From assembly GCA_021413975.1 (NCBI GenBank), contig JAIOPJ010000016.1, positions 62,001 to 126,000 on the forward strand: a stretch of 64,000 bases of DNA, given 5' to 3'. Under the pieces are notes generated by a model, which was not told the origin of the DNA, made no database searches, and saw only the letters and a list, made by a program, of their open reading frames with translations. The stretch is from Gemmatimonadota bacterium. Its GTDB lineage: Bacteria > Gemmatimonadota > Gemmatimonadetes > Gemmatimonadales > Gemmatimonadaceae. This document shows positions 10,240-64,000 of the stretch, in pieces. Both the position numbers and the translations under genes were made by a program. Position 1 is the stretch's first letter. Every line of letters begins with the position of its first letter.

Positions 10240-12015
10240 ATGCACAACCCCGAACTCAGCGGCCCGAATCGCCCGTCGACGGGCATCCCTCCGCATCTCG
10301 ACGGATGGTCGCTGCCGCCGGACTGGCGCTGGGGGAGCAGCGGCGTCTACACGCCGTACCGTCATGCGCAGGAGATCCGCGATGCCCTGGGGCGCTCGCT
10401 CGCCCTCGTCACGGCACCGGATCCGGCGCATCATGCGTGGCTCTTCCGCGAGGCCCGTCAACTCGCGCATCGCAGCCACCCGATGATCCCCACGACGTAT
10501 CACTTCTGGCAGCAGCACGTCGGCAGTCCTCGCGGCCCGGGCTACCTGCGTCGCTGGATCACCGGTGAGACGATCGGGGAGCGGCTGCGCCGCAGTGGAG
10601 CGGAGACGGTGCCCTTCACGCTGCGGATCATCCGATCGATCGGATCGGCCCTCGCATACCTGCACGATTCCGGGAGCGTGCATGGCGCGATCGCACCCGA
10701 CACCTCCTACTTCACGCCGACCGGTCGCGTCTGGGTGCTCGGCTGGCAGTGGGCCGTGCCGCGCGACGAGATCCCCACGGGAGTGGCTCCCGACCGGCAC
10801 TGGAAACCGCAGGCCCCCGAGTGGAAGGGTGGTTGGTCGCCGAGCCAGGCCTCGGATCAGTGGCAGCTGGGCGCGATCGCGTACGCGCTGCTGACGGGCG
10901 AACCCCCGAGTGGCGCGGTGCTCCCGCCGATCGGACTCGCGCGTCCGGACTGTCCCAAGTCGGTGGCCGAGCTCGTGGACCGGATGCTGGCGCCGTCGCC
11001 GAACGACCGTTTCACGAGCCTCGCCGGGATGCTCCGCCGCATCGAGCGCATCTCCGGCACGTCGGCGCTGGCGTTCCCCGGGACCGAGCAGGCGAGCGGC
11101 GAGCATATCGCACTCTCCGAGGAGGACCGTCTGCGCTGGGCGACCGGCGACGACTACGAGGTGCTCGCGCCGCTCGGCGCCGGCTCGTACGGCTCGGTCT
11201 GGCGGGTGCGCGACCTCTCGCTCGAGCGCGAGGTCGCGCTGAAGATGCTCCACCCCACGGTCGCGCGGAACGCGACCGCCGTGGGACGTTTCCGGCGCGA
11301 GGCGCAGCTGGCCGCGCAGCTGCAGCACCCGGCGATCGTCCCGATCTTCGCGTGGGACTCGAAGGGGGACGTGAACTGGTACATCATGGAGCTCGAGGAG
11401 GAAGGCTCGGTCGCCGACCTCGTGAAGCGCTCGGGGCCATTGGGGTTCGCCGAGATCGCGCCGCAGGTGGATTCGGTGCTCGACGGGCTCGCGGTCGCCC
11501 ACGCGAACGGGATCATCCATCGCGATCTCAAGCCCGAGAACATCCTGATCGACCGCTACCGGCGCTGGCGCATCGCCGACTTCGGCATCGCGCATGCCCT
11601 GGGTGCTCGGCCCGCGGGGTCGTCGGGGACGCCGGCCTTCGCCTCGCCGGAACAGCTGCTGGGTGAGGAGCAATCGGCGACGACCGACCTCTTCGCGGTC
11701 GGCGCGATCGTCTACTACGCGCTCATGGGCCGCTCGCCGTTCGAGGGCGGGGACGGGCGGGCGATCCTCGCCGCCCAGCTCGCGGGCCGGGTGGACCTCG
11801 GGGAGTTCGCGGAGCCGCTCGCCGGCTGGTTGCGGAGGTCGCTCGCGGCCGATCCGCGCGAGCGCTTCGCCGACGCGTCGGTGATGCGCACTGCGTGGCG
11901 CCAGGTGGTCCGGCAGACCGCCCGTGCCGAGCGACGCAACCGGACGCTGCTCGGTCGCTTCACGCGCCTGATGACCGCGGTGTTGGGGCGCGCGCCGAAG
12001 AAGCGCCGGACCTGA
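10240..12015 (+). CDS. Tandem pseudokinase plus active Ser/Thr protein kinase
   Basis: 591 aa. The C-terminal domain (about residues 305-560) is a complete Hanks-type kinase: glycine loop LGAGSYGSVW (near 311), VALK lysine (near 334), catalytic HRDLKPEN (near 427) and DFG (near 447), then SPEQ. The N-terminal ~280 residues have a kinase-like layout (QLAHRSHPMIPTTYHF, ALAYLHDSGSVHGAIAPDTSYF, then SDQWQLGAIAYALLTGEPP) but HRD is replaced by HGA and DFG by a Gly-Trp-Gln sequence, so it should be catalytically dead. The C-terminal tail is short and basic with no membrane helix or PASTA repeats, so the protein appears cytoplasmic. The pseudokinase may regulate the active domain; this is inferred from the arrangement. 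Confidence 0.9.
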   Translation: MHNPELSGPNRPSTGIPPHLDGWSLPPDWRWGSSGVYTPYRHAQEIRDALGRSLALVTAPDPAHHAWLFREARQLAHRSHPMIPTTYHFWQQHVGSPRGPGYLRRWITGETIGERLRRSGAETVPFTLRIIRSIGSALAYLHDSGSVHGAIAPDTSYFTPTGRVWVLGWQWAVPRDEIPTGVAPDRHWKPQAPEWKGGWSPSQASDQWQLGAIAYALLTGEPPSGAVLPPIGLARPDCPKSVAELVDRMLAPSPNDRFTSLAGMLRRIERISGTSALAFPGTEQASGEHIALSEEDRLRWATGDDYEVLAPLGAGSYGSVWRVRDLSLEREVALKMLHPTVARNATAVGRFRREAQLAAQLQHPAIVPIFAWDSKGDVNWYIMELEEEGSVADLVKRSGPLGFAEIAPQVDSVLDGLAVAHANGIIHRDLKPENILIDRYRRWRIADFGIAHALGARPAGSSGTPAFASPEQLLGEEQSATTDLFAVGAIVYYALMGRSPFEGGDGRAILAAQLAGRVDLGEFAEPLAGWLRRSLAADPRERFADASVMRTAWRQVVRQTARAERRNRTLLGRFTRLMTAVLGRAPKKRRT

Positions 12016-12030
12016 CGGGCGACCGGCGCG

Positions 12031-14334
12031 TCAGTCGGCGTCGAGGAGGGCGCGCACCGTGGCAGCGACCTTCTTGGCCGTGAACGGCTTCTGGAGGAAG
12101 ACGTAGCGCGCGGCCCCGAGGTCGCGGCGCAGATCCTCGTCGTCGGTGTACCCGGACATGAGGATCACGCGCGTGCCCGGCCGGATCGCGAGGACGCGTT
12201 GCACGAGCTCCTTGCCTCCGATGCCGGGCATCATGACGTCGGTGAGCAGCAGGTCGATCGCGCCGGCGGTCTCCTCGGCGAGCCGCAGCGCTTCGCCGCC
12301 GTTGGCGGCCTCGACGACCTGGTATCCTCCCGAGCGCAGCATCCGTGACAGGGCCGACCGGATGGCCGGTTCATCCTCGACGAGCAGGATCGTCTCGCCG
12401 CCCTCCGGCAGCACCGTGCCGCGTGAGGGACTGAGCCGCGATTCGGGTTCCCGCTCGGAGTCGCCCACGCGGGGGAGGATGATGTCGAACACGCTTCCTT
12501 CGTTCTCTGCGCTCCGCACGCGGATCGTCCCGCCGGCGGTCCGCACGATCGCATAACCGGTCGCGAGGCCGAGGCCCGTGCCCTGGCCCGAGGGCTTGGT
12601 GGTGAAGAACGGTTCGAAGAGCAGACGTTGCACCTCGGCCGACATGCCACTGCCGGTGTCGCGCACACTGACGACCACCGCCGGGTGGGTCACGGTCGCC
12701 GCGGCGTCGAGGCGCTCGTCGCCGCCCGAGAGGACGATCGTGAGCAGGCCGCCGCGGGGCATCGCATCGACGGCGTTGATCGAGAGGTTCATGATCACCT
12801 GCTCGAGCTGGCCGGCGTCGCATCGCACGAGCAAGGCCTCGTCGGCGAGCCGGATCTCGAGGTCGACGCCCTGCCTGAGCAGCCGGCGCAGGATGCCCTC
12901 GATGCCGGAGACGACCTCGTTGACGTCGACGACCCGTGGGACCACGACCTCGCGGCGACTGAACGCGAGGAGCTTGCGCGCCAGCGTGGCGGCGCGGTCG
13001 GCCGCACCGCGGATCGCCTCGATCTCCTCGTGCCCCGGCGCGCTCGGATCGAGATTCGCGGCGAGCATCTCGCCGTAACTCTGGATCACCGTGAGGACGT
13101 TGTTGAAGTCGTGTGCGATCCCGCCGGCGAGCCGTCCGACGGCTTCCATCTTCTGGGCCTGCCGGAGCTGCTCCTCCAGCTGGCTGCGCGCCGAGACGTC
13201 CAGGAGCATCACGCCGACGCCCGTCGGCGGCCGCCCGCGCGGGCGCAGCGGATAGCAGGTCACGTTCCAGCGGCGTGGGGTGTTCGGCGATGCGGGCACC
13301 TCCCCGCTGACGACCACGTCCGATTCGGCGACGCCGGTGCGGAGCACGCGCGAGAGGACCGGCTCGAGGCGCGGGCCGAGCACCGGCATCAGGTCCGTCA
13401 ACGTGAGGCCGGGGTGTGCCTCCACGGGGCGCGCGCTCAGGGCGGCGATGGCCGGGTTCACGCGGAGGAGGCGCAGGTCGCTGCCGAGGAAGGCGACGCC
13501 GAACGGTGCGCTCGCCACCGCGGAATCGAGGAAGACGGTCGTCTCCTCCAGCCGCCGGTTGGCCTCGTCGGCGGCGTCGATCCGGTGCTCGAGCTCGGCG
13601 GTCGTCTCCTCGAGCTGGCCGGTCTGCTCCTCCAATACGAGGGCCTGCTGCTGCAGCTCCGCCGACTGCGCTTCGACCTGACGCGCCTGCTCGTGAGCCC
13701 GGCCCACCTCACGCTCGAGCGCCAACGCGACGCCGCGGAAGATCCACGCGGCCACGCCGATCGTGACGAGGATCAGCGCGAAGGCCGACCAGTCCATGCG
13801 CGCCTGGCGCAGGCGGAGCACGCCGCTGCGACTGAACGCGTCGGTGTGGAACGCGTCGAACAGGCGCGAGACCTCGTCGAAGCGATCGGTGGCCGCCACG
13901 GCCACGTCCCTCGTGACGGACCCAGTTACCAGCACCGCGTCGGCGAAGTCGACGTGCCAGGCCGCGACCGCGTCGATGAGCGAATCGACGAGCGGCACCT
14001 GCTCGTGTCCCGCCGCGGCACGCAGCATGCCGAGATGCGTCTCGGCGACCGATCGGGCCGCCCGGGCGCGCGGCGCCGCAGCGGTGTCGCGGCGCAACCC
14101 GAACCCTCGCAATGCGCTCTCCTCGAGCCAGAGCGCCCGCTGCGCTTCCGAGGCGTGCCGGATCACGGTGCCGCTCTGCGCGACGCGCCGCACGGCGGCC
14201 TGGTTCGCGAGGAATCCCGATACGAGGACCACGCTCGTCAGCAGGACCACGGCCGCGAAGACACCCCGCCAGCGGCGGAGGTCCTTGGCGGCCTCGATCG
14301 TGGGCACGCGATCCGGGGGCGTGGTCTCGAACAT
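12031..14334 (-). CDS. Hybrid sensor histidine kinase with C-terminal receiver
   Basis: 767 aa from ATG 14334, chosen because the N-terminal helix (FAAVVLLTSVVLVSGFLA) follows and a TATCTT box is 8 nt upstream. Order: helix (about 25-45), a four-helix-type periplasmic region, second helix (near 215), coiled coil (about 240-285), PAS domain with SAPFGVAFLGSDLRLLRVNP, kinase core with the phosphoacceptor GGIAHDFNNVLTVI, ATPase motifs MNLSINAVDAMPRGG, DTGSGM and GQGTGLGLATGYAI, and a receiver with LLLTDVMMPG (acceptor Asp near 697) and the lysine in FLQKPF. The HDFNN subtype often phosphorylates its own receiver. It is convergent with the kinase gene ending at 12015 (15-nt gap) and has no linked output regulator. 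Confidence 0.93.
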   Translation of the reverse strand: MFETTPPDRVPTIEAAKDLRRWRGVFAAVVLLTSVVLVSGFLANQAAVRRVAQSGTVIRHASEAQRALWLEESALRGFGLRRDTAAAPRARAARSVAETHLGMLRAAAGHEQVPLVDSLIDAVAAWHVDFADAVLVTGSVTRDVAVAATDRFDEVSRLFDAFHTDAFSRSGVLRLRQARMDWSAFALILVTIGVAAWIFRGVALALEREVGRAHEQARQVEAQSAELQQQALVLEEQTGQLEETTAELEHRIDAADEANRRLEETTVFLDSAVASAPFGVAFLGSDLRLLRVNPAIAALSARPVEAHPGLTLTDLMPVLGPRLEPVLSRVLRTGVAESDVVVSGEVPASPNTPRRWNVTCYPLRPRGRPPTGVGVMLLDVSARSQLEEQLRQAQKMEAVGRLAGGIAHDFNNVLTVIQSYGEMLAANLDPSAPGHEEIEAIRGAADRAATLARKLLAFSRREVVVPRVVDVNEVVSGIEGILRRLLRQGVDLEIRLADEALLVRCDAGQLEQVIMNLSINAVDAMPRGGLLTIVLSGGDERLDAAATVTHPAVVVSVRDTGSGMSAEVQRLLFEPFFTTKPSGQGTGLGLATGYAIVRTAGGTIRVRSAENEGSVFDIILPRVGDSEREPESRLSPSRGTVLPEGGETILLVEDEPAIRSALSRMLRSGGYQVVEAANGGEALRLAEETAGAIDLLLTDVMMPGIGGKELVQRVLAIRPGTRVILMSGYTDDEDLRRDLGAARYVFLQKPFTAKKVAATVRALLDAD

Positions 14335-14342
14335 CGCAGGGA

Positions 14343-14348
14343 AAGATA
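14343..14348 (-). promoter_or_regulatory. Leaderless-type -10 box for the hybrid kinase gene
   Basis: On the minus strand TATCTT is followed by 8 nt and the ATG at 14334. It lies in a 115-bp divergent region shared with the TonB-receptor promoter. No clear -35 element is seen. Confidence 0.4.
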
Positions 14349-14438
14349 GCGCGTTCCGCCGGTTCGCCGCCGTCGCGCCGGCAGGGGCGGACCCGCCGTC
14401 CGGCGCGCCGATGCTTTCGCGCCGCACCGCCGGCGGAC

Positions 14439-14444
14439 TATCGT
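14439..14444 (+). promoter_or_regulatory. Leaderless-type -10 box for the TonB receptor gene
   Basis: TATCGT ends 5 nt before the ATG at 14450. The -35 region is unconvincing. No Shine-Dalgarno-like purine run precedes the start. Confidence 0.35.
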
Positions 14445-14449
14445 TGGGC

Positions 14450-16594
14450 ATGCACACCGCCCTCCGCTCGTCGTTGCGACTGCTCATCCTTCACGCGCTC
14501 GTGTGCCAGGCCGCCTCCGCGCAGGCGGGAGCGGACTCCGCGCGCGCGGACAGCAGCCGCATCCTCCGCGCGGTGCGCGTCGAGGCCGCCCGGACCCCCC
14601 AGCCCGCCGACCGGGTCCCGTGGGCCGTCAGCACGCTCGACGCGCGCGCCCTGCGGCGAGGGCAAGCGACGCTCGGCCTCGATGAAGCGGTCTCCGACCT
14701 GCCCGGCGTCGTGGTCTCCAATCGCTACAACTACGCCCTCGACCAGCGGCTCAGCATCCGCGGGGCCGGGAGCCGCGCCAACTTCGGACTGCGAGGGGTG
14801 AAGGTGCTGCTCGACGGCATCCCACAGTCGTTGCCCGACGGCCAGAGCCAGCTCACCAACGTCGATCTCGCATCGATCGGGCGCGTGGAGGTGTTGCGGG
14901 GCGCGGCCTCCTCGCTGCATGGCAACGGGTCGGGCGGCGTCCTCGCGTTCACGACCGATCTCACCGCGCCCGACCGGCTCGGCGCGAGCGTGCGGGCCAC
15001 CACCGGTTCGTTCGGGATGAACAAGCTCCAACTGCGGACCAGCGGGCGGACGGGTCCGTTCATCGGCGCGGTGTCGGCGTCGCGCACGACGGTGGACGGC
15101 TTCCGTCAGTACAGCAGGGCGGACCTGCGGCAACTCGGCGGGGCCGTCGACCAGGCGCTCAATGAGCGCGTCACGTTGTCGTGGCGCGCCGGTGTCGCCG
15201 AGACACCATTGGCGCTCAATCCCGGTGCGCTCACGGCCGCGGAGTACGCGATCAACCCCGACACCGCGGCGCTCAACAACACCCGGCGCGGGGCGCAGCG
15301 CTCGGTCTCGCAACGGTACCTCTCGCTCCGCGCGCACAAGGACGAGGGTCCGGTCACGTGGAGCGCGAGCCTCTTCGGACAGCGACGCTTCATCGACAAC
15401 CCGCTCGCGACCGCGCCGCCGGCGCCGGCGGCCCCGACGAACGGCGTGCGCAACACGATCGACCGTCGTGTCACGGGCCTGCGCCTGGATGCTTCGCGCA
15501 CCGTCGCCGCCGCCTGGGAGCCGCGGCTCTCGGTCGGACTCGACGTGCAGCGCTCGCACGACGTGCGCCGCAACGAGCGCACGACCGGCGGCTGGATCGT
15601 CGCGCCGACCGACACCACCTTCCTGTTCCAGGGGGAGACGGTGGTGAGCGTCGGGCCGTCGGCGCAGTTGCAGCTCTCGCCCGCGCCGAAGGTGGCCCTG
15701 AGCATGGGCGCGCGGTGGGACCGGCTCTCGTTCCGCGTGGAGGACCACTTCACCGGCGACGGCGACGACGACAGCGGCGAGCGCGTGATGACGGCGGCGA
15801 GCGGCCACGTCGGTGCCGTCTGGCAGCTGGCGCCGGCCTTCAGTCCGTACGCGAACATCGGGACGGCGTTCGAGACGCCGACCACGACGGAGCTGAACTC
15901 GCGGCAGGACGGACTGGGGGGATTCAACGACGCCCTCGGCCCCCAGCGCATCGTCTCGGCCGAGGTGGGCGCGCGGGGGAGGGTGGGGGAGCGCGTGACC
16001 TACGAGATGGCGTACTTCGATTCGCGGGCGGGCGATGCGATCGTGCAATACCTCGAGTCGGGCGGTCGCGCCTATTTCCGGAACGCGGGTCGCACGCGCA
16101 GCCGCGGCGTCGAGCTCGGGTTCGCGGCGGTCCTCACGCCCTCGTTCACGCTCCGTGGCGCGTACACGGGGGCGGACCATCGGTTCGTGGAGTATCGCAT
16201 CCCTTCGGCGACGCTCCCCGTGCCGGCGCGCGACACGCTCGACGGCAACAGGCTCGCGGGCATCCCGAAGGAGAACTGGCGCGTCGCACTGCAGTTCGCG
16301 CACGCGGGTCTCGTGGTCGACGCGGAGCAGACCATGCAGGGGGCGGCGTGGGGCGACGACGCGAACAGCGTACGGGTCGCCGATTGGGGACGCGGCCTGC
16401 TCAACCTGCGCACCTCGTGGCGCGGCATGGTGCTGGGGCGTTCCGTGGAGCCGTTCGTGGCGCTGCAGAACGCGCTCGACGAGCGCTATGTCGGGGCGGT
16501 GACGCTCAACGGGTTCGGTGGCCGCGTGCTCGAGCCGGCGCCCGGACGCAACTGGTACCTGGGCATCGAGATCGGGTCGCCGGTCCTGCGGTGA
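14450..16594 (+). CDS. TonB-dependent outer membrane receptor
   Basis: 714 aa with a signal peptide (LRLLILHALVCQAASAQA). A plug domain follows with the conserved string LSIRGAGSRANFGLRGVKVLLDG..PLPDGQ-like region and VEVLRGAASSLHGNGSGG, and then a long beta-barrel with repeated aromatic beta strands such as RVTLSWRAGV and ITYEMAYFDSRAGDAI-like segments. The N-terminal sequence VRVEAARTPQPADRVPWAVSTLDA resembles a weak TonB box. Receptors of this type take up siderophores, cobalamin or oligosaccharides; no ligand can be assigned because no transporter, TonB or regulator gene is beside it. It is divergent from the hybrid kinase and followed by a SET-domain gene. Confidence 0.92.
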   Translation: MHTALRSSLRLLILHALVCQAASAQAGADSARADSSRILRAVRVEAARTPQPADRVPWAVSTLDARALRRGQATLGLDEAVSDLPGVVVSNRYNYALDQRLSIRGAGSRANFGLRGVKVLLDGIPQSLPDGQSQLTNVDLASIGRVEVLRGAASSLHGNGSGGVLAFTTDLTAPDRLGASVRATTGSFGMNKLQLRTSGRTGPFIGAVSASRTTVDGFRQYSRADLRQLGGAVDQALNERVTLSWRAGVAETPLALNPGALTAAEYAINPDTAALNNTRRGAQRSVSQRYLSLRAHKDEGPVTWSASLFGQRRFIDNPLATAPPAPAAPTNGVRNTIDRRVTGLRLDASRTVAAAWEPRLSVGLDVQRSHDVRRNERTTGGWIVAPTDTTFLFQGETVVSVGPSAQLQLSPAPKVALSMGARWDRLSFRVEDHFTGDGDDDSGERVMTAASGHVGAVWQLAPAFSPYANIGTAFETPTTTELNSRQDGLGGFNDALGPQRIVSAEVGARGRVGERVTYEMAYFDSRAGDAIVQYLESGGRAYFRNAGRTRSRGVELGFAAVLTPSFTLRGAYTGADHRFVEYRIPSATLPVPARDTLDGNRLAGIPKENWRVALQFAHAGLVVDAEQTMQGAAWGDDANSVRVADWGRGLLNLRTSWRGMVLGRSVEPFVALQNALDERYVGAVTLNGFGGRVLEPAPGRNWYLGIEIGSPVLR

Positions 16595-61511: not shown

Positions 61512-61541
61512 TTGCGAGAGGTGGCGCGCCGAATGTAGACT
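61512..61541 (+). promoter_or_regulatory. Promoter candidate of the lasso-peptide cluster
   Basis: TTGCGA (61512-61517), 18 bp, TAGACT (61536-61541), then 7 nt to ATG 61549. The -10 and spacing to an ATG match other leaderless-type promoters in the window. The promoter overlaps the divergent TPR gene start region. Confidence 0.55.
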
Positions 61542-61548
61542 GCCCCCG

Positions 61549-61602
61549 ATGACCCACGCCAGCACGCTCTCCGTCGCGCGGTCGCGCGCGCCCCGCCGGT
61601 GA
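61549..61602 (+). CDS. 17-residue micro-ORF coupled to the PqqD-like gene (tentative)
   Basis: ATG 61549 opens the frame MTHASTLSVARSRAPRR and its TGA (61600-61602) overlaps the GTG of the PqqD-like gene (GTGA). The -10 box 7 nt upstream would put the transcript start on this ATG. It may be a translated leader that delivers ribosomes to the next gene, rather than a functional peptide. No homologue is known to me. Confidence 0.35.
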   Translation: MTHASTLSVARSRAPRR

Positions 61603-61904
61603 GTGCCGTCGCCCTCACGCGCGCGACGCCGATCGTGGCGTCGGACGACCAGGCGTCGGCCGAACTCAGTTCGGAGGTGGTGATCCTCTCCATGCGCGAG
61701 GGCGTCTACTTCGGACTCGACGGCGTCGGGGCACGGATCTGGTCGCTCGTGCAGCAGCCGACCACCCTCGGCGAGGTCACGGCGACGATCGTCTCCGAAT
61801 TCGAGGTCGAGGAGGAGCGGGCGTTCGCCGACCTGTGCGCGCTCGCCGGCGAGATGGCCGGGCACGGACTCGTGCGACTCGGGGGCGAGACCGGCACGAC
61901 GTGA
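61599..61904 (+). CDS. PqqD-like RiPP recognition element, lasso protein B1
   Basis: 101 aa from GTG 61599. The core has SSEVVILSMREGVYFGLDGVGARIWSLVQQPTTLGEVTATIVSEFEVE and ends LAGEMAGHGLVRLG, the standard winged-helix PqqD-family pattern. In lasso clusters this stand-alone domain (B1) grips the leader peptide through its YxxPxL motif and delivers it to the leader peptidase (B2). Two precursors with that motif follow at 62021 and 62291. B2 is not fused to it and is not seen in the window. Confidence 0.9.
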   Translation: MSAVALTRATPIVASDDQASAELSSEVVILSMREGVYFGLDGVGARIWSLVQQPTTLGEVTATIVSEFEVEEERAFADLCALAGEMAGHGLVRLGGETGTT

Positions 61905-62020
61905 TACCCCTGACTGCGCCGCGGTCGGCGTTCCGACAGCTTTCGCGCACGGCCCGGTGCCATTCGTGCTCGGTCGGACCATCCCACTCCCGAGCGGAGC
62001 GGACAACACGCGGATCGCCG

Positions 62021-62176
62021 ATGCAGGCGCTGCTGGCACGACCCATCCGGGCCCCGATCAAGAAGCTCGTCTATCGACCTCCGCGGCTGGTGACGTTCGG
62101 ACGCGCGTCCGGTCTCACCGAGCGGAACTCGAACCGCGGGAGAAGGGACGGACTGAACAACCGGCGGACGGGCTGA
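62021..62176 (+). CDS. Lasso peptide precursor A1
   Basis: 51 aa from ATG 62021. The leader (residues 1-34) contains YRPPRLVTFGRASGLT, an exact fit to the lasso leader pattern YxxPxLxxxGxxxxxT, with Thr33 at the expected second-last leader position. The predicted core, residues 35-51, is RNSNRGRRDGLNNRRTG, with Asp at position 9 for a nine-residue macrolactam ring to the N-terminus. Arg as first core residue is unusual. A GTG at 61901, overlapping the PqqD-like stop, would give a 91-aa form with a long leader; this is less likely by length. No Shine-Dalgarno is seen. Confidence 0.82.
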   Translation: MQALLARPIRAPIKKLVYRPPRLVTFGRASGLTERNSNRGRRDGLNNRRTG

Positions 62177-62192
62177 GCAGGACGCTCGGCGG

Positions 62193-62222
62193 TTGACGCT
62201 CACGTCGTCGGGCGGGCAGATT
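62193..62222 (+). promoter_or_regulatory. Promoter candidate ahead of precursor A2
   Basis: TTGACG (62193-62198), 18 bp, CAGATT (62217-62222), in the 114-bp gap between the two precursor genes. The -35 is 5 of 6. It would let A2 and the downstream genes be transcribed separately from the PqqD-like gene. Confidence 0.4.
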
Positions 62223-62290
62223 GTGGTCACGTTGCTCGTGCCGCGCATCGCGGCCGATGATTGGCAGGTTCCCGCCGCCGGATGCGCCCC

Positions 62291-62458
62291 ATGAACGATC
62301 GTACCGAAGGGCCACCAGCGTACTCGCCGGTCTCCTCACCGAAGCGCGCACCATACCTGCCGCCGCGCCTCGGACGGTTCGGCGTGGTCACGACGCTTAC
62401 CGCCACGGTCTCCATGAAGGGACTGATGGACAACTTCATGGGCCGACGGACGGGCTGA
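62291..62458 (+). CDS. Lasso peptide precursor A2
   Basis: 55 aa from ATG 62291; ATG 62282 (three residues longer) and TTG 62261 are alternatives. The leader contains YLPPRLGRFGVVTTLT, again exactly YxxPxLxxxGxxxxxT, with Thr37 second-last. The predicted core, residues 39-55, is TVSMKGLMDNFMGRRTG with Asp9 as ring acceptor. Compared with A1, core positions Ser3, Gly6, Asp9 and the tail RRTG are identical and the length is the same. The TGA stop is followed at once by the GTG of the methyltransferase gene. Confidence 0.87.
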   Translation: MNDRTEGPPAYSPVSSPKRAPYLPPRLGRFGVVTTLTATVSMKGLMDNFMGRRTG

Positions 62459-63613
62459 GTGTACGCGCTGTCGGACTACCTGGCGATGATCGACGATCAC
62501 CGCCGTACGTCCGCCTACACGCGAGCGCTCCGGGCGGCGATCCGCCCGGGCGACGTGGTGCTCGAACTCGGCGCCGGCTTCGGCTACTTCTCCGTCGAGG
62601 CCGCCCGGATGGGAGCGGCCCACGTCTATGCGGTCGAGCCGAACGACGCGATCGATCTCGGCCCCGCGCTCGCGGCGCGGCACGGCGTCGCCGACCGGAT
62701 CACCTTCCTCCAGTGCCGCGCCTCGGAGGTCGAGCTGCCGGTGCGCGCCGATCTCCTGCTCGAGGACCTGCGCGGATGCTCGCCACTGCTGGGCGGGAGA
62801 CTCGGCATCCTGCGCGATGCCCGGGTGCGGCTCCTCAAGCCCGACGCGCGCTTCGTCGCGCGACACGACCGGCTGATGGTGGCGCCGGCGGCGCTGCGCG
62901 CGACGGGTGGCGGGGACGCTCCCGTCACCGTGGGGGAGCCCACGGAAGCGCTCTCGCTCGATGACGTGCGTACGCGCGCCGGGCGCGGCTGGCGCCGCAT
63001 CGATGCGGATGGTTTCGATCCGCTCGCGCCGGCGGCCTGCTGGGCGTCGATCGACCTCACCGCCGTGGACGGACTCGATGTCGACGGGCGCGCTGCCTTC
63101 GTGATCGAGCGCGATGGCGTGCTCGAGGGATGGGCGAGCTGGTTCGAGGCGGAACTCGCCGGCGGCGCCCTGATCTCGAGCGGGCCGGAGTCCGGCGGGT
63201 CGGTGTACGCCTGTGGCTGGTATCCGCTCGAGTGCAGCGAACCGGTGCGCGCTGGTGACGGTGTGGCGGTGCGCCTCCGCGCCACGCACGACGGCACCGA
63301 CTACGTCTGGCTCTGGGAGACGACGATCACGCCGGCCGACGGGAGGGCGCCGCGCCGCTCCCGGCAGTCGAGTCTCGGCACGAGCCTCTTGTCCGCTGCT
63401 CGACGCGCACGGCGCGCGGCGGCGCATGTGCCCGGCGTCGGCGAGGCACTCGCCGTGCAGCGCGATCTCCTCGACGCCGTCGACGGCGCGCGGACGCTCG
63501 AGGAGATCGCGGCGCTGCTGCGGGTGCGCCACCCCGCCCGCTTCGTCGACGCCCGCACGGCGCTCGCCTGGACCGCAGCCGAACTCGCGCGCCTCGACGA
63601 ACCGCCCGCGTGA
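62459..63613 (+). CDS. Arginine-methyltransferase-like enzyme with PqqD-like C-terminal tail
   Basis: 384 aa from GTG 62459, directly after the A2 stop. The N-terminal half follows the PRMT layout: YLAMIDDHRRTSAYTRAL (as in PRMT region ML.D..R..aY..Ai), SAM motif VVLELGAGFGYFSVEAA, VYAVEPN, then LLLEDLRGCSPLLGGRL at the place of the double-E loop. The first glutamate is kept and the second appears replaced by glycine. A beta-rich middle domain as in PRMTs follows (FVIERDGVLEGWASWFEAEL). The last ~60 residues (LLDAVDGARTLEEIAALL and onward) look like a PqqD-like winged helix, which could hold the leader. Likely role: tailoring of the lasso peptide, perhaps arginine N-methylation; this is inferred. 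Confidence 0.82.
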   Translation: MYALSDYLAMIDDHRRTSAYTRALRAAIRPGDVVLELGAGFGYFSVEAARMGAAHVYAVEPNDAIDLGPALAARHGVADRITFLQCRASEVELPVRADLLLEDLRGCSPLLGGRLGILRDARVRLLKPDARFVARHDRLMVAPAALRATGGGDAPVTVGEPTEALSLDDVRTRAGRGWRRIDADGFDPLAPAACWASIDLTAVDGLDVDGRAAFVIERDGVLEGWASWFEAELAGGALISSGPESGGSVYACGWYPLECSEPVRAGDGVAVRLRATHDGTDYVWLWETTITPADGRAPRRSRQSSLGTSLLSAARRARRAAAHVPGVGEALAVQRDLLDAVDGARTLEEIAALLRVRHPARFVDARTALAWTAAELARLDEPPA

Positions 63614-63640
63614 CGGGGCCCGGATGACAGGGTCCGCGCC

Positions 63641-64000
63641 GTGAGCGGCTTCCTCCTCTGCTGGCATCGCGCCGGCGGTGCGCTCGCGCCGGCGGTGCTC
63701 GATCGCGTGCGCGCGCGCCTCGCGATGCGCGGTCCCGAGGGCGGCGCGACGATCCACGCCACCGATGCCGTCGCCCTGCACACGGCCTTCACCGACGCGA
63801 TCGGCGCCGAGGAGGATCTGCCGTTGCGCGTCGGCGACCTCATGATCGCGGCGGACCTGCGGCTCGACGATCGCACGCGGCTGCGCGCGCACCTCCGGGA
63901 CGTCGGGGACGATCCGCCGGCCGACGCGACCGATGCACGCCTCCTCGCCTCGGCGATGCGCTGCTGGGGCGATGGTGCGGCGTCGCGGCTGCTCGGCGAC
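63641..64000 (+). CDS. Lasso cyclase (asparagine-synthetase-like), N-terminal part only
   Basis: 120 codons from GTG 63641 to the window edge. The protein starts MSGFLLCWHRAGGALAP and has VGDLMIAADLRLDDRTRLRAHL and the pattern TDARLLASAMRCWGDGAASRLLGD, which is the glutamine-amidotransferase-like N-domain found in lasso cyclases (protein C). The nucleophilic Cys2 of true asparagine synthetase is absent, as in other lasso cyclases, where ATP activates the ring Asp/Glu of the core instead. The synthetase domain lies outside the window. Confidence 0.85.
   Translation, partial: MSGFLLCWHRAGGALAPAVLDRVRARLAMRGPEGGATIHATDAVALHTAFTDAIGAEEDLPLRVGDLMIAADLRLDDRTRLRAHLRDVGDDPPADATDARLLASAMRCWGDGAASRLLGD

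Follow-up and report, generated by a model that had tools for sequence, protein, structure and literature searches.

The right end of the stretch analysed here, a 64,000-nucleotide window of contig JAIOPJ010000016.1 from a Gemmatimonadota bacterium, carries the start of a lasso-peptide gene cluster, with genes for precursors (A), a leader-binding protein (B1), a cyclase (C) and tailoring enzymes (M, K and N). Judged by its genes, this is a real lasso-type cluster of a known kind, and the type is common in Gemmatimonadota. Three departures from that kind are read in it: the leader peptidase B2 and the exporter are gone from the cluster across the sampled genus, the spacing between the leader Thr and the following Asp is long, and M is a tailoring enzyme with the fold of protein arginine methyltransferases (PRMT). 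The explanation favoured here, with restrained confidence, is that of a functional-looking lasso cluster which has lost its own B2 and exporter; its leaders would be cut by an enzyme from elsewhere, K, N and M would tailor the peptides, and rings of 9 and 10 residues would be closed.

An earlier note, made from the letters of the window alone, had read B1, two precursors, a tailoring enzyme and the start of a cyclase in a row, and the open frames and profile matches bear this out. Read past the window end and in window numbering, the gene order is B1-A1-A2-M-C-K-A3-N, all on the + strand:

61599..61904, + strand: B1, PqqD-like recognition element for ribosomally synthesised and post-translationally modified peptides (RiPPs), 101 aa
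62021..62176 (ATG 62021, stop ends 62176), + strand: A1 precursor, leader motif and core
62282..62458 (ATG 62282 or 62291, stop ends 62458), + strand: A2 precursor, leader motif and core
62459..63613, + strand: M, predicted PRMT-fold S-adenosylmethionine (SAM) methyltransferase, 384 aa, open frame, GTG start
63641..65431, + strand: C, lasso cyclase (AsnB-like), 596 aa, with its N-terminal part, 63641..64000, inside the window
65424-66398, + strand, beyond the window: K, HPr-type kinase, profile matches under cut-offs
66483-66677, + strand, beyond the window: A3, third precursor, leader motif, lasso-leader profile matches under cut-off
66646-67848, + strand, beyond the window: N, PF14907 at E 1.9e-40
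directly after N, opposite strand: ychF-like gene, family by appearance; the cluster ends with N at 67848

Both precursors described in the note are present, and A3, beyond the window, brings the cluster total to three. Its lasso reading stands as regards B1, A, C, K and the PF14907 protein, which are conserved in relatives, and fails as regards the B2 peptidase and ABC exporter that it had placed beyond position 64000: there is no B2 up to the end of N, and no exporter gene up to the ychF-like gene that N adjoins. The note had added that finding neither a B2 nor a cyclase C-domain in the following sequence would tell against it; the C-domain is there, the C frame being complete to 65431, and B2 is absent.

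The absence of B2 extends to the whole assembly (G000; 3.08 Mb, 56 contigs, 92.7% complete), in which none was found by three profiles. PF13471 gave two matches at E<=1, neither over its cut-off and both rejected: as named by eye, the one on contig 6 (L004) sits in a large transglutaminase-like protein directly ahead of an ABC ATPase-like gene, and the one on contig 23 is antisense to other genes. All six genus genomes searched have weak PF13471 matches that fall in large frames. A profile of the B2 proteins of 15 relatives found none in the assembly at E<=0.01, and NF033537 gave 0 matches at E<=1 in this genome and in its congener G398; as a positive control, the same search passed the cut-off in 4 of 4 sister-genus genomes.

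Relatives were gathered by a search for M, which gave 58 places in 54 of 395 genomes. The cluster itself and 36 others were read, 20 places (17 genomes) lie outside this reading, and one further match falls within a stretch already read. Among the 37 loci read, 27 show M with another clear cluster gene; B1 is outside view in L056, L058, L061, L064 and L074, and in L045 and L183 the sequence stops short of the cluster's right side.

Within the genus, M is present in 6 of 17 genomes. B1 stands at the same place in all six clusters, own included, and the gene after it is in every case A or M, not B2 (the contig of G183 ends inside K and that of G398 after M). Elsewhere in the family, B2 lies beside B1 in 14 of 14 other clusters with B1 in view, its end being cut short in L067, and the same arrangement is found in one cluster of another family (L053). 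In a third family, L062 and L063, with B1 in view, have no B2 beside it, and weaker B2 matches occur elsewhere in those genomes; L063 also holds, at 11300-15800, two cyclase genes and two precursors adjacent in one cluster. The weaker B2 match of G311 is located in a separate lasso cluster, and G376 (81% complete, B1 outside view) yields no B2 with the relatives' profile. In the midpoint-rooted M tree, the six genus rows form one clade with support 100/97, so a single loss of B2 in the genus suffices; third-family loci L055, L058 and L064 are labelled as lacking B2 there though their B1 is outside view, and the label needs three changes. As for export, L047 has an ABC exporter gene (PF00005, PF00664) in the space from N to the ychF-like gene, and exporter-like frames were seen by eye at the same place in L046, L049, L050, L054, L059 and L066.

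The precursors are the second main element of the argument. A1 and A2 carry the leader motifs YRPPRLVTFGRASGLT and YLPPRLGRFGVVTTLT, and the statement that both leaders fit YxxPxLxxxGxxxxxT is upheld by counting: the six-frame translation of the window contains two instances of Y..P.L...G.....T followed by 8-45 residues, whereas 60 dinucleotide shuffles of it contain 0.017 on average and 1 at most. Neither A1 nor A2 has a match at E<=1 among the Pfam and NCBIfam models. In A1, the leader ...YRPPRLVTFGRASGLTE is followed by the predicted core RNSNRGRRDGLNNRRTG, and in A2 the leader ...YLPPRLGRFGVVTTLTA by the predicted core TVSMKGLMDNFMGRRTG, with Asp ten residues after the leader Thr (T+10) in both; in A3, Asp is at T+11. 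Congeners have similar precursors in the B1-M or the K-N interval, ETVSMRGNMDGFMGRRTG and KRNWFAPGRVDGGFWWRRTG being examples of their cores, and A2-like cores of the form ...MxGxMDG...RTG recur in G087, G126, G183 and G396. Thr at position -2, Thr(-2), is found in 9 of 9 genus precursors, and a looser pattern admitting T, I, V or S gave the same nine.

Across the phylum, 29 loci of this cluster type were searched and 24 of them yielded the 35 precursors counted, near-copy rows (L059/L061 and L046/L056) included. Counted from the leader Thr, the first acidic residue within positions 7-13 lies at 10 in 16 precursors, at 11 in 17 and at 12 in 2. That residue is always Asp, it is the sole acidic residue of the core in 31 of the 35, and none of the 19 precursors at T+11 or T+12 has an acidic residue at core positions 7-9 as counted from the usual cut. 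Lasso clusters without M in the same phylum show a spacing of 9 in 16 of 16 precursors (10 loci, several of them near-copies; L177, L179 and L184 were left out, having no precursor seen earlier). Loci with M in other phyla show spacings of 8, 9 and 10 in 1, 13 and 6 of 20 precursors (19 hand-picked loci; L103, L127 and L156 were left out though a precursor-like frame was seen), so spacings of 11 and 12 are seen only in the Gemmatimonadota cluster type. Under the usual Thr(-2) cut, spacings of 10 to 12 would give rings of 9, 10 and 11 residues, and the rings predicted for the present cluster have 9 residues in A1 and A2 and 10 in A3. Monoisotopic masses calculated with this cut for the unmodified, ring-closed peptides are 1980.03 for A1, 1881.90 for A2 and 2255.12 for A3; a cut one residue later would give 2099.02 for A3.

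The third departure is the enzyme M, the METHYLTRANSFERASE, for which single-sequence Pfam scans give only methyltransferase matches and a very weak PRMT5_C match. PRMT_C matches 11 of 20 relatives, and a profile of 20 M homologues matches the solved PRMT6, PRMT2, PRMT1 and CARM1, with a best E of 6.2e-43 over positions 3-267. The AlphaFold model of M (predicted local distance difference test, pLDDT, 89.6; predicted template modelling score, pTM, 0.79) finds PRMT2 (8bva, E 1.7e-23) as its best Foldseek match, followed by matches to PRMT6 and yeast Hmt1. As modelled, M has the PRMT fold, a Rossmann domain with a beta-barrel.

In PRMTs, two Glu residues of the double-E loop bind the guanidinium of arginine. 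M does not have this loop: at its place, the first position is D in 20 of 20 homologues and the second is E in 1 of 20, and in a wider set (n=23) the first is D in 19, E in 3 and V in 1, with the second Glu in 3. Moreover, 12 of the 35 cores have no Arg, which makes arginine doubtful as a general target of M. The altered loop and these Arg-free cores together make a non-arginine target likely. Among the literature matches listed, no report was found that joins a lasso peptide with an arginine methyltransferase or PRMT.

Genes like M are also seen outside the phylum. Among the matches listed for named genomes, 32 of 79 M-like loci have at least one other lasso-gene match in the stretch examined, in Planctomycetota, Chloroflexota and Acidobacteriota among others, and at 47 of the 79 M stands alone in that stretch. 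In L100, L110, L122, L123, L124 and L137, PRMT-like genes in metagenome-assembled genomes of other phyla lie beside lasso genes, and the precursor frames there end in CL, not in K/R-T. By eye, the C-terminal helices of M itself (residues 313-380, DGxRTxxEIAxxL...) resemble the helical half of a PqqD domain.

The remaining proteins belong to families known from lasso clusters, often at scores below the specific cut-offs. B1 matches PF05402 over its cut-off (E 1.9e-15), and all lasso-specific models remain under theirs, lasso_PqqD_Bac giving 51 bits against a cut-off of 80 (E 1.1e-13). Lasso cyclases keep the motif of the ATP site and lack the N-terminal catalytic Cys. C has an SGGLDS motif at 263 and begins with VSGFLL, without that Cys; it reaches 170 bits with NF033535, against a cut-off of 525, and E 2.4e-31 with PF00733, and the cyclase in the second lasso cluster of G087 is likewise under the NF033535 cut-off. 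K matches HprK_rel_A (E 2.6e-8) and PF07475 (E 2.6e-7), both under cut-off, and retains His127, Lys148, Asp165 and Asp166 in the motifs ALHAS, GTGKST and TDDIL. These residues match the His-Lys-Asp-Asp motif that the available text of PMC9266682 describes for lasso kinases, so K fits the PadeK/PsmK type by sequence.

The tails of the cores agree with the presence of such a kinase. Ser or Thr is among the last 4 residues of all 35 cores, and K or R stands directly ahead of Ser/Thr within the last 5 residues of 33. PadeK and PsmK phosphorylate the C-terminus, and hexoses are added with PsmN, as given in the available parts of PMC9266682 and PMC8498205. The core tails would suit the same reaction here; we infer it and go no further, because the kinase of the bsf cluster of Bradymonas sediminis targets Ser3 and not the C-terminus, according to the accessible text of PMC10368454.

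Comparison with described systems, as far as the available texts go, places the cluster near the phosphorylated pseudomycoidin/paeninodin type (PMC9266682, PMC8498205). With that type it shares B1, C, an HPr-type kinase K, a nucleotidyltransferase-like N (in some of them) and Ser/Thr near the C-terminus; it differs in having no B2 or exporter gene, in the added PRMT-fold M, in the longer Thr-Asp spacing, in its three precursors, and in a Thr one residue before the end where the known type has a C-terminal Ser. The bsf cluster (A, B1, B2, C, D, K, N) likewise has separate B1, K and N, but it has B2, an ABC transporter, Ile(-2), a Gly1-Asp8 ring and Ser3 phosphorylation, and the accessible text lists no M (PMC10368454). 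SAM methyltransferases that tailor lasso peptides are described in the excerpts of PMC9266682; StspM of the lassomycin type is a C-terminal carboxyl O-methyltransferase and those of lihuanodin and cellulonodin are PIMT homologues, whereas M belongs to the PRMT family by profile and fold. Alignment with PRMT1, PRMT2 and PRMT6 covers about 265 positions, barrel included, and the M group differs in having D at the first Glu place of the double-E loop.

From the gene content, the fold of M, the failure to find B2 in cluster and assembly, the recurrence in the genus and the Thr-Asp spacing, we infer the chemical steps, the protease source and the ring sizes of the following pathway. B1 would bind the YxxPxL leader, K would phosphorylate the conserved C-terminal Thr (tail ...RRTG) as PsmK does, and N would add a further group to the phosphate as PsmN does. 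M would methylate the precursor or the product, at a position that is probably not arginine. C would link the core N-terminus to Asp, giving 9-residue rings in A1 and A2 and a 10-residue ring in A3. The leader would be removed from elsewhere, most likely in trans by the B2 belonging to a second lasso cluster. Such a second cluster is present in 4 of the 6 genus genomes that have the present one; the assembly of the window genome does not contain it.

These four genomes (G087, G126, G183 and G396) have exactly one B2 each over the NF033537 cut-off, and it lies in the second lasso cluster. In G126, G183 and G396, tblastn matched its B1, C, K and N genes; in G087, C was recognised by profile and the other genes by eye, and ABC parts were confirmed in G087 and G396. 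The idea that G087 has no B2 at all was ruled out, PF13471 having found one that the relatives' B2 alignment had missed.

Several observations weigh against the proposed pathway. The window genome has no second lasso cyclase and no B2 by three profiles, so that a supply in trans is not proven for this genome and may not exist (an NF033535 match on contig 5 was rejected as an AsnB-type protein with an MCGLAG start). Completeness of the assembly stands at 92.7%, and no match was found in it for two genes that flank the second cluster in congeners: a deacetylase-like gene, recovered from the four genomes with that cluster but from neither G000 nor G398, and an imuB-like gene, not found in G000 in a search that had no positive control. 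The ring sizes presuppose the Thr(-2) rule, what M acts on is guesswork, the bsf kinase acts on Ser3 in the text available (PMC10368454), and 5 of the 29 related clusters searched gave no precursor (L049, L050, L054, L057 and L064).

The strongest alternative, to which we give slightly less than an even chance, is that B2 is present in the species and missing from this assembly. The incomplete assembly and the two missing neighbour genes are in its favour; a B2 of this kind would nevertheless act in trans, since none lies beside B1 in 6 of 6 genus genomes.

The main alternative to enlarged rings is a shifted cut, which would come one or two residues later in precursors with T+11 or T+12 and keep all rings at 9. 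This is possible, and we hold it to be the less probable course. The available texts of PMC13352647 and PMC8498205 give only rings of 7-9 residues for characterised lasso peptides, no report of a natural 10-residue ring was found among the literature matches listed, and Gly would become residue 1 of a 9-residue ring in both T+12 precursors. On the other hand, the accessible text of PMC10368454 describes Thr(-2) as shared by every lasso precursor reported before, Ile being the exception, and a 10-residue ring analogue was made in vitro with the fuscanodin/fusilassin enzymes (PMC8498205, in the part available). A1 and A3 both have RN after T-x, with Asp at 10 and 11, respectively, consistent with a single cut site and rings of two sizes.

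It is unlikely that the leader is removed by a housekeeping protease, or that the cyclase works without any B2 as for pseudomycoidin, whose synthesis without leader and leader peptidase is stated in the title of its report. No B2 was found in G000 or in G398 (77% complete), as this would predict, but the leader motif and Thr(-2) persist in the genus precursors, and 4 of the 6 genomes keep a B2 elsewhere. A C39-type peptidase as the substitute is ruled out, none being found in 6 of 6 genus genomes at E<=0.01. That the cluster is decaying and makes nothing is improbable: two functions are lost in the genus, and in L067, outside it, M is split over two frames and the end of B2 is cut short, but the M frame is free of internal stops in all 6 genus genomes, at 48-55% identity, the other genes each align by BLAST in one long piece wherever the contig extends over them, and cores and RTG tails recur.

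The layout of the locus is also shared. The stop codon of A2 abuts the GTG of M, and the junctions A2/M, C/K and A3/N, which abut or overlap, suggest a single operon. To the left lie a tetratricopeptide repeat (TPR) protein gene (PF07719) and, by eye, ribosomal protein genes; the TPR gene flanks all five other genus clusters on the left, and the ychF-like gene stands on the right in all three whose contig reaches there. In all four genus clusters in view (own, G087, G126, G396) N is directly next to the ychF-like gene, as it also is in L051 and L052.

Further lasso loci were met in the same sample. The second cluster type (L170, L171, L172, L185 and L186, in G126, G183, G004, G396 and G087) has Cys-containing cores with long tails, for instance ...GLASASDGGSIFG...; B1, B2, C and K were matched in G126, G183, G004 and G396, and N in three of these. 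In the third family, L173, L174, L176 and L178 are lasso clusters without M, with up to three precursors, for example ...ELINFRPG..., beside B1, B2-like and C frames.

In lasso biosynthesis, the size of the ring and the presence of a leader peptidase of its own are regarded as nearly constant. Tentatively, the cluster may belong to a natural lasso lineage in which one cyclase makes 10- and 11-residue macrolactams beside 9-residue ones, a PRMT-derived methyltransferase acts on a residue other than arginine, and a genus does without a cognate leader peptidase, which would be borrowed from a second lasso pathway or not needed. The loss of B2 from the cluster while leader and Thr(-2) persist offers a natural test of whether one B2 serves two pathways. 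A cluster type in which 19 of 35 precursors, cut in the usual way, lack any acidic residue at positions 7-9 would extend what is known of the chemistry of threaded peptides, and a PRMT-fold M would be a new kind of lasso tailoring enzyme, found beside lasso genes in several phyla.

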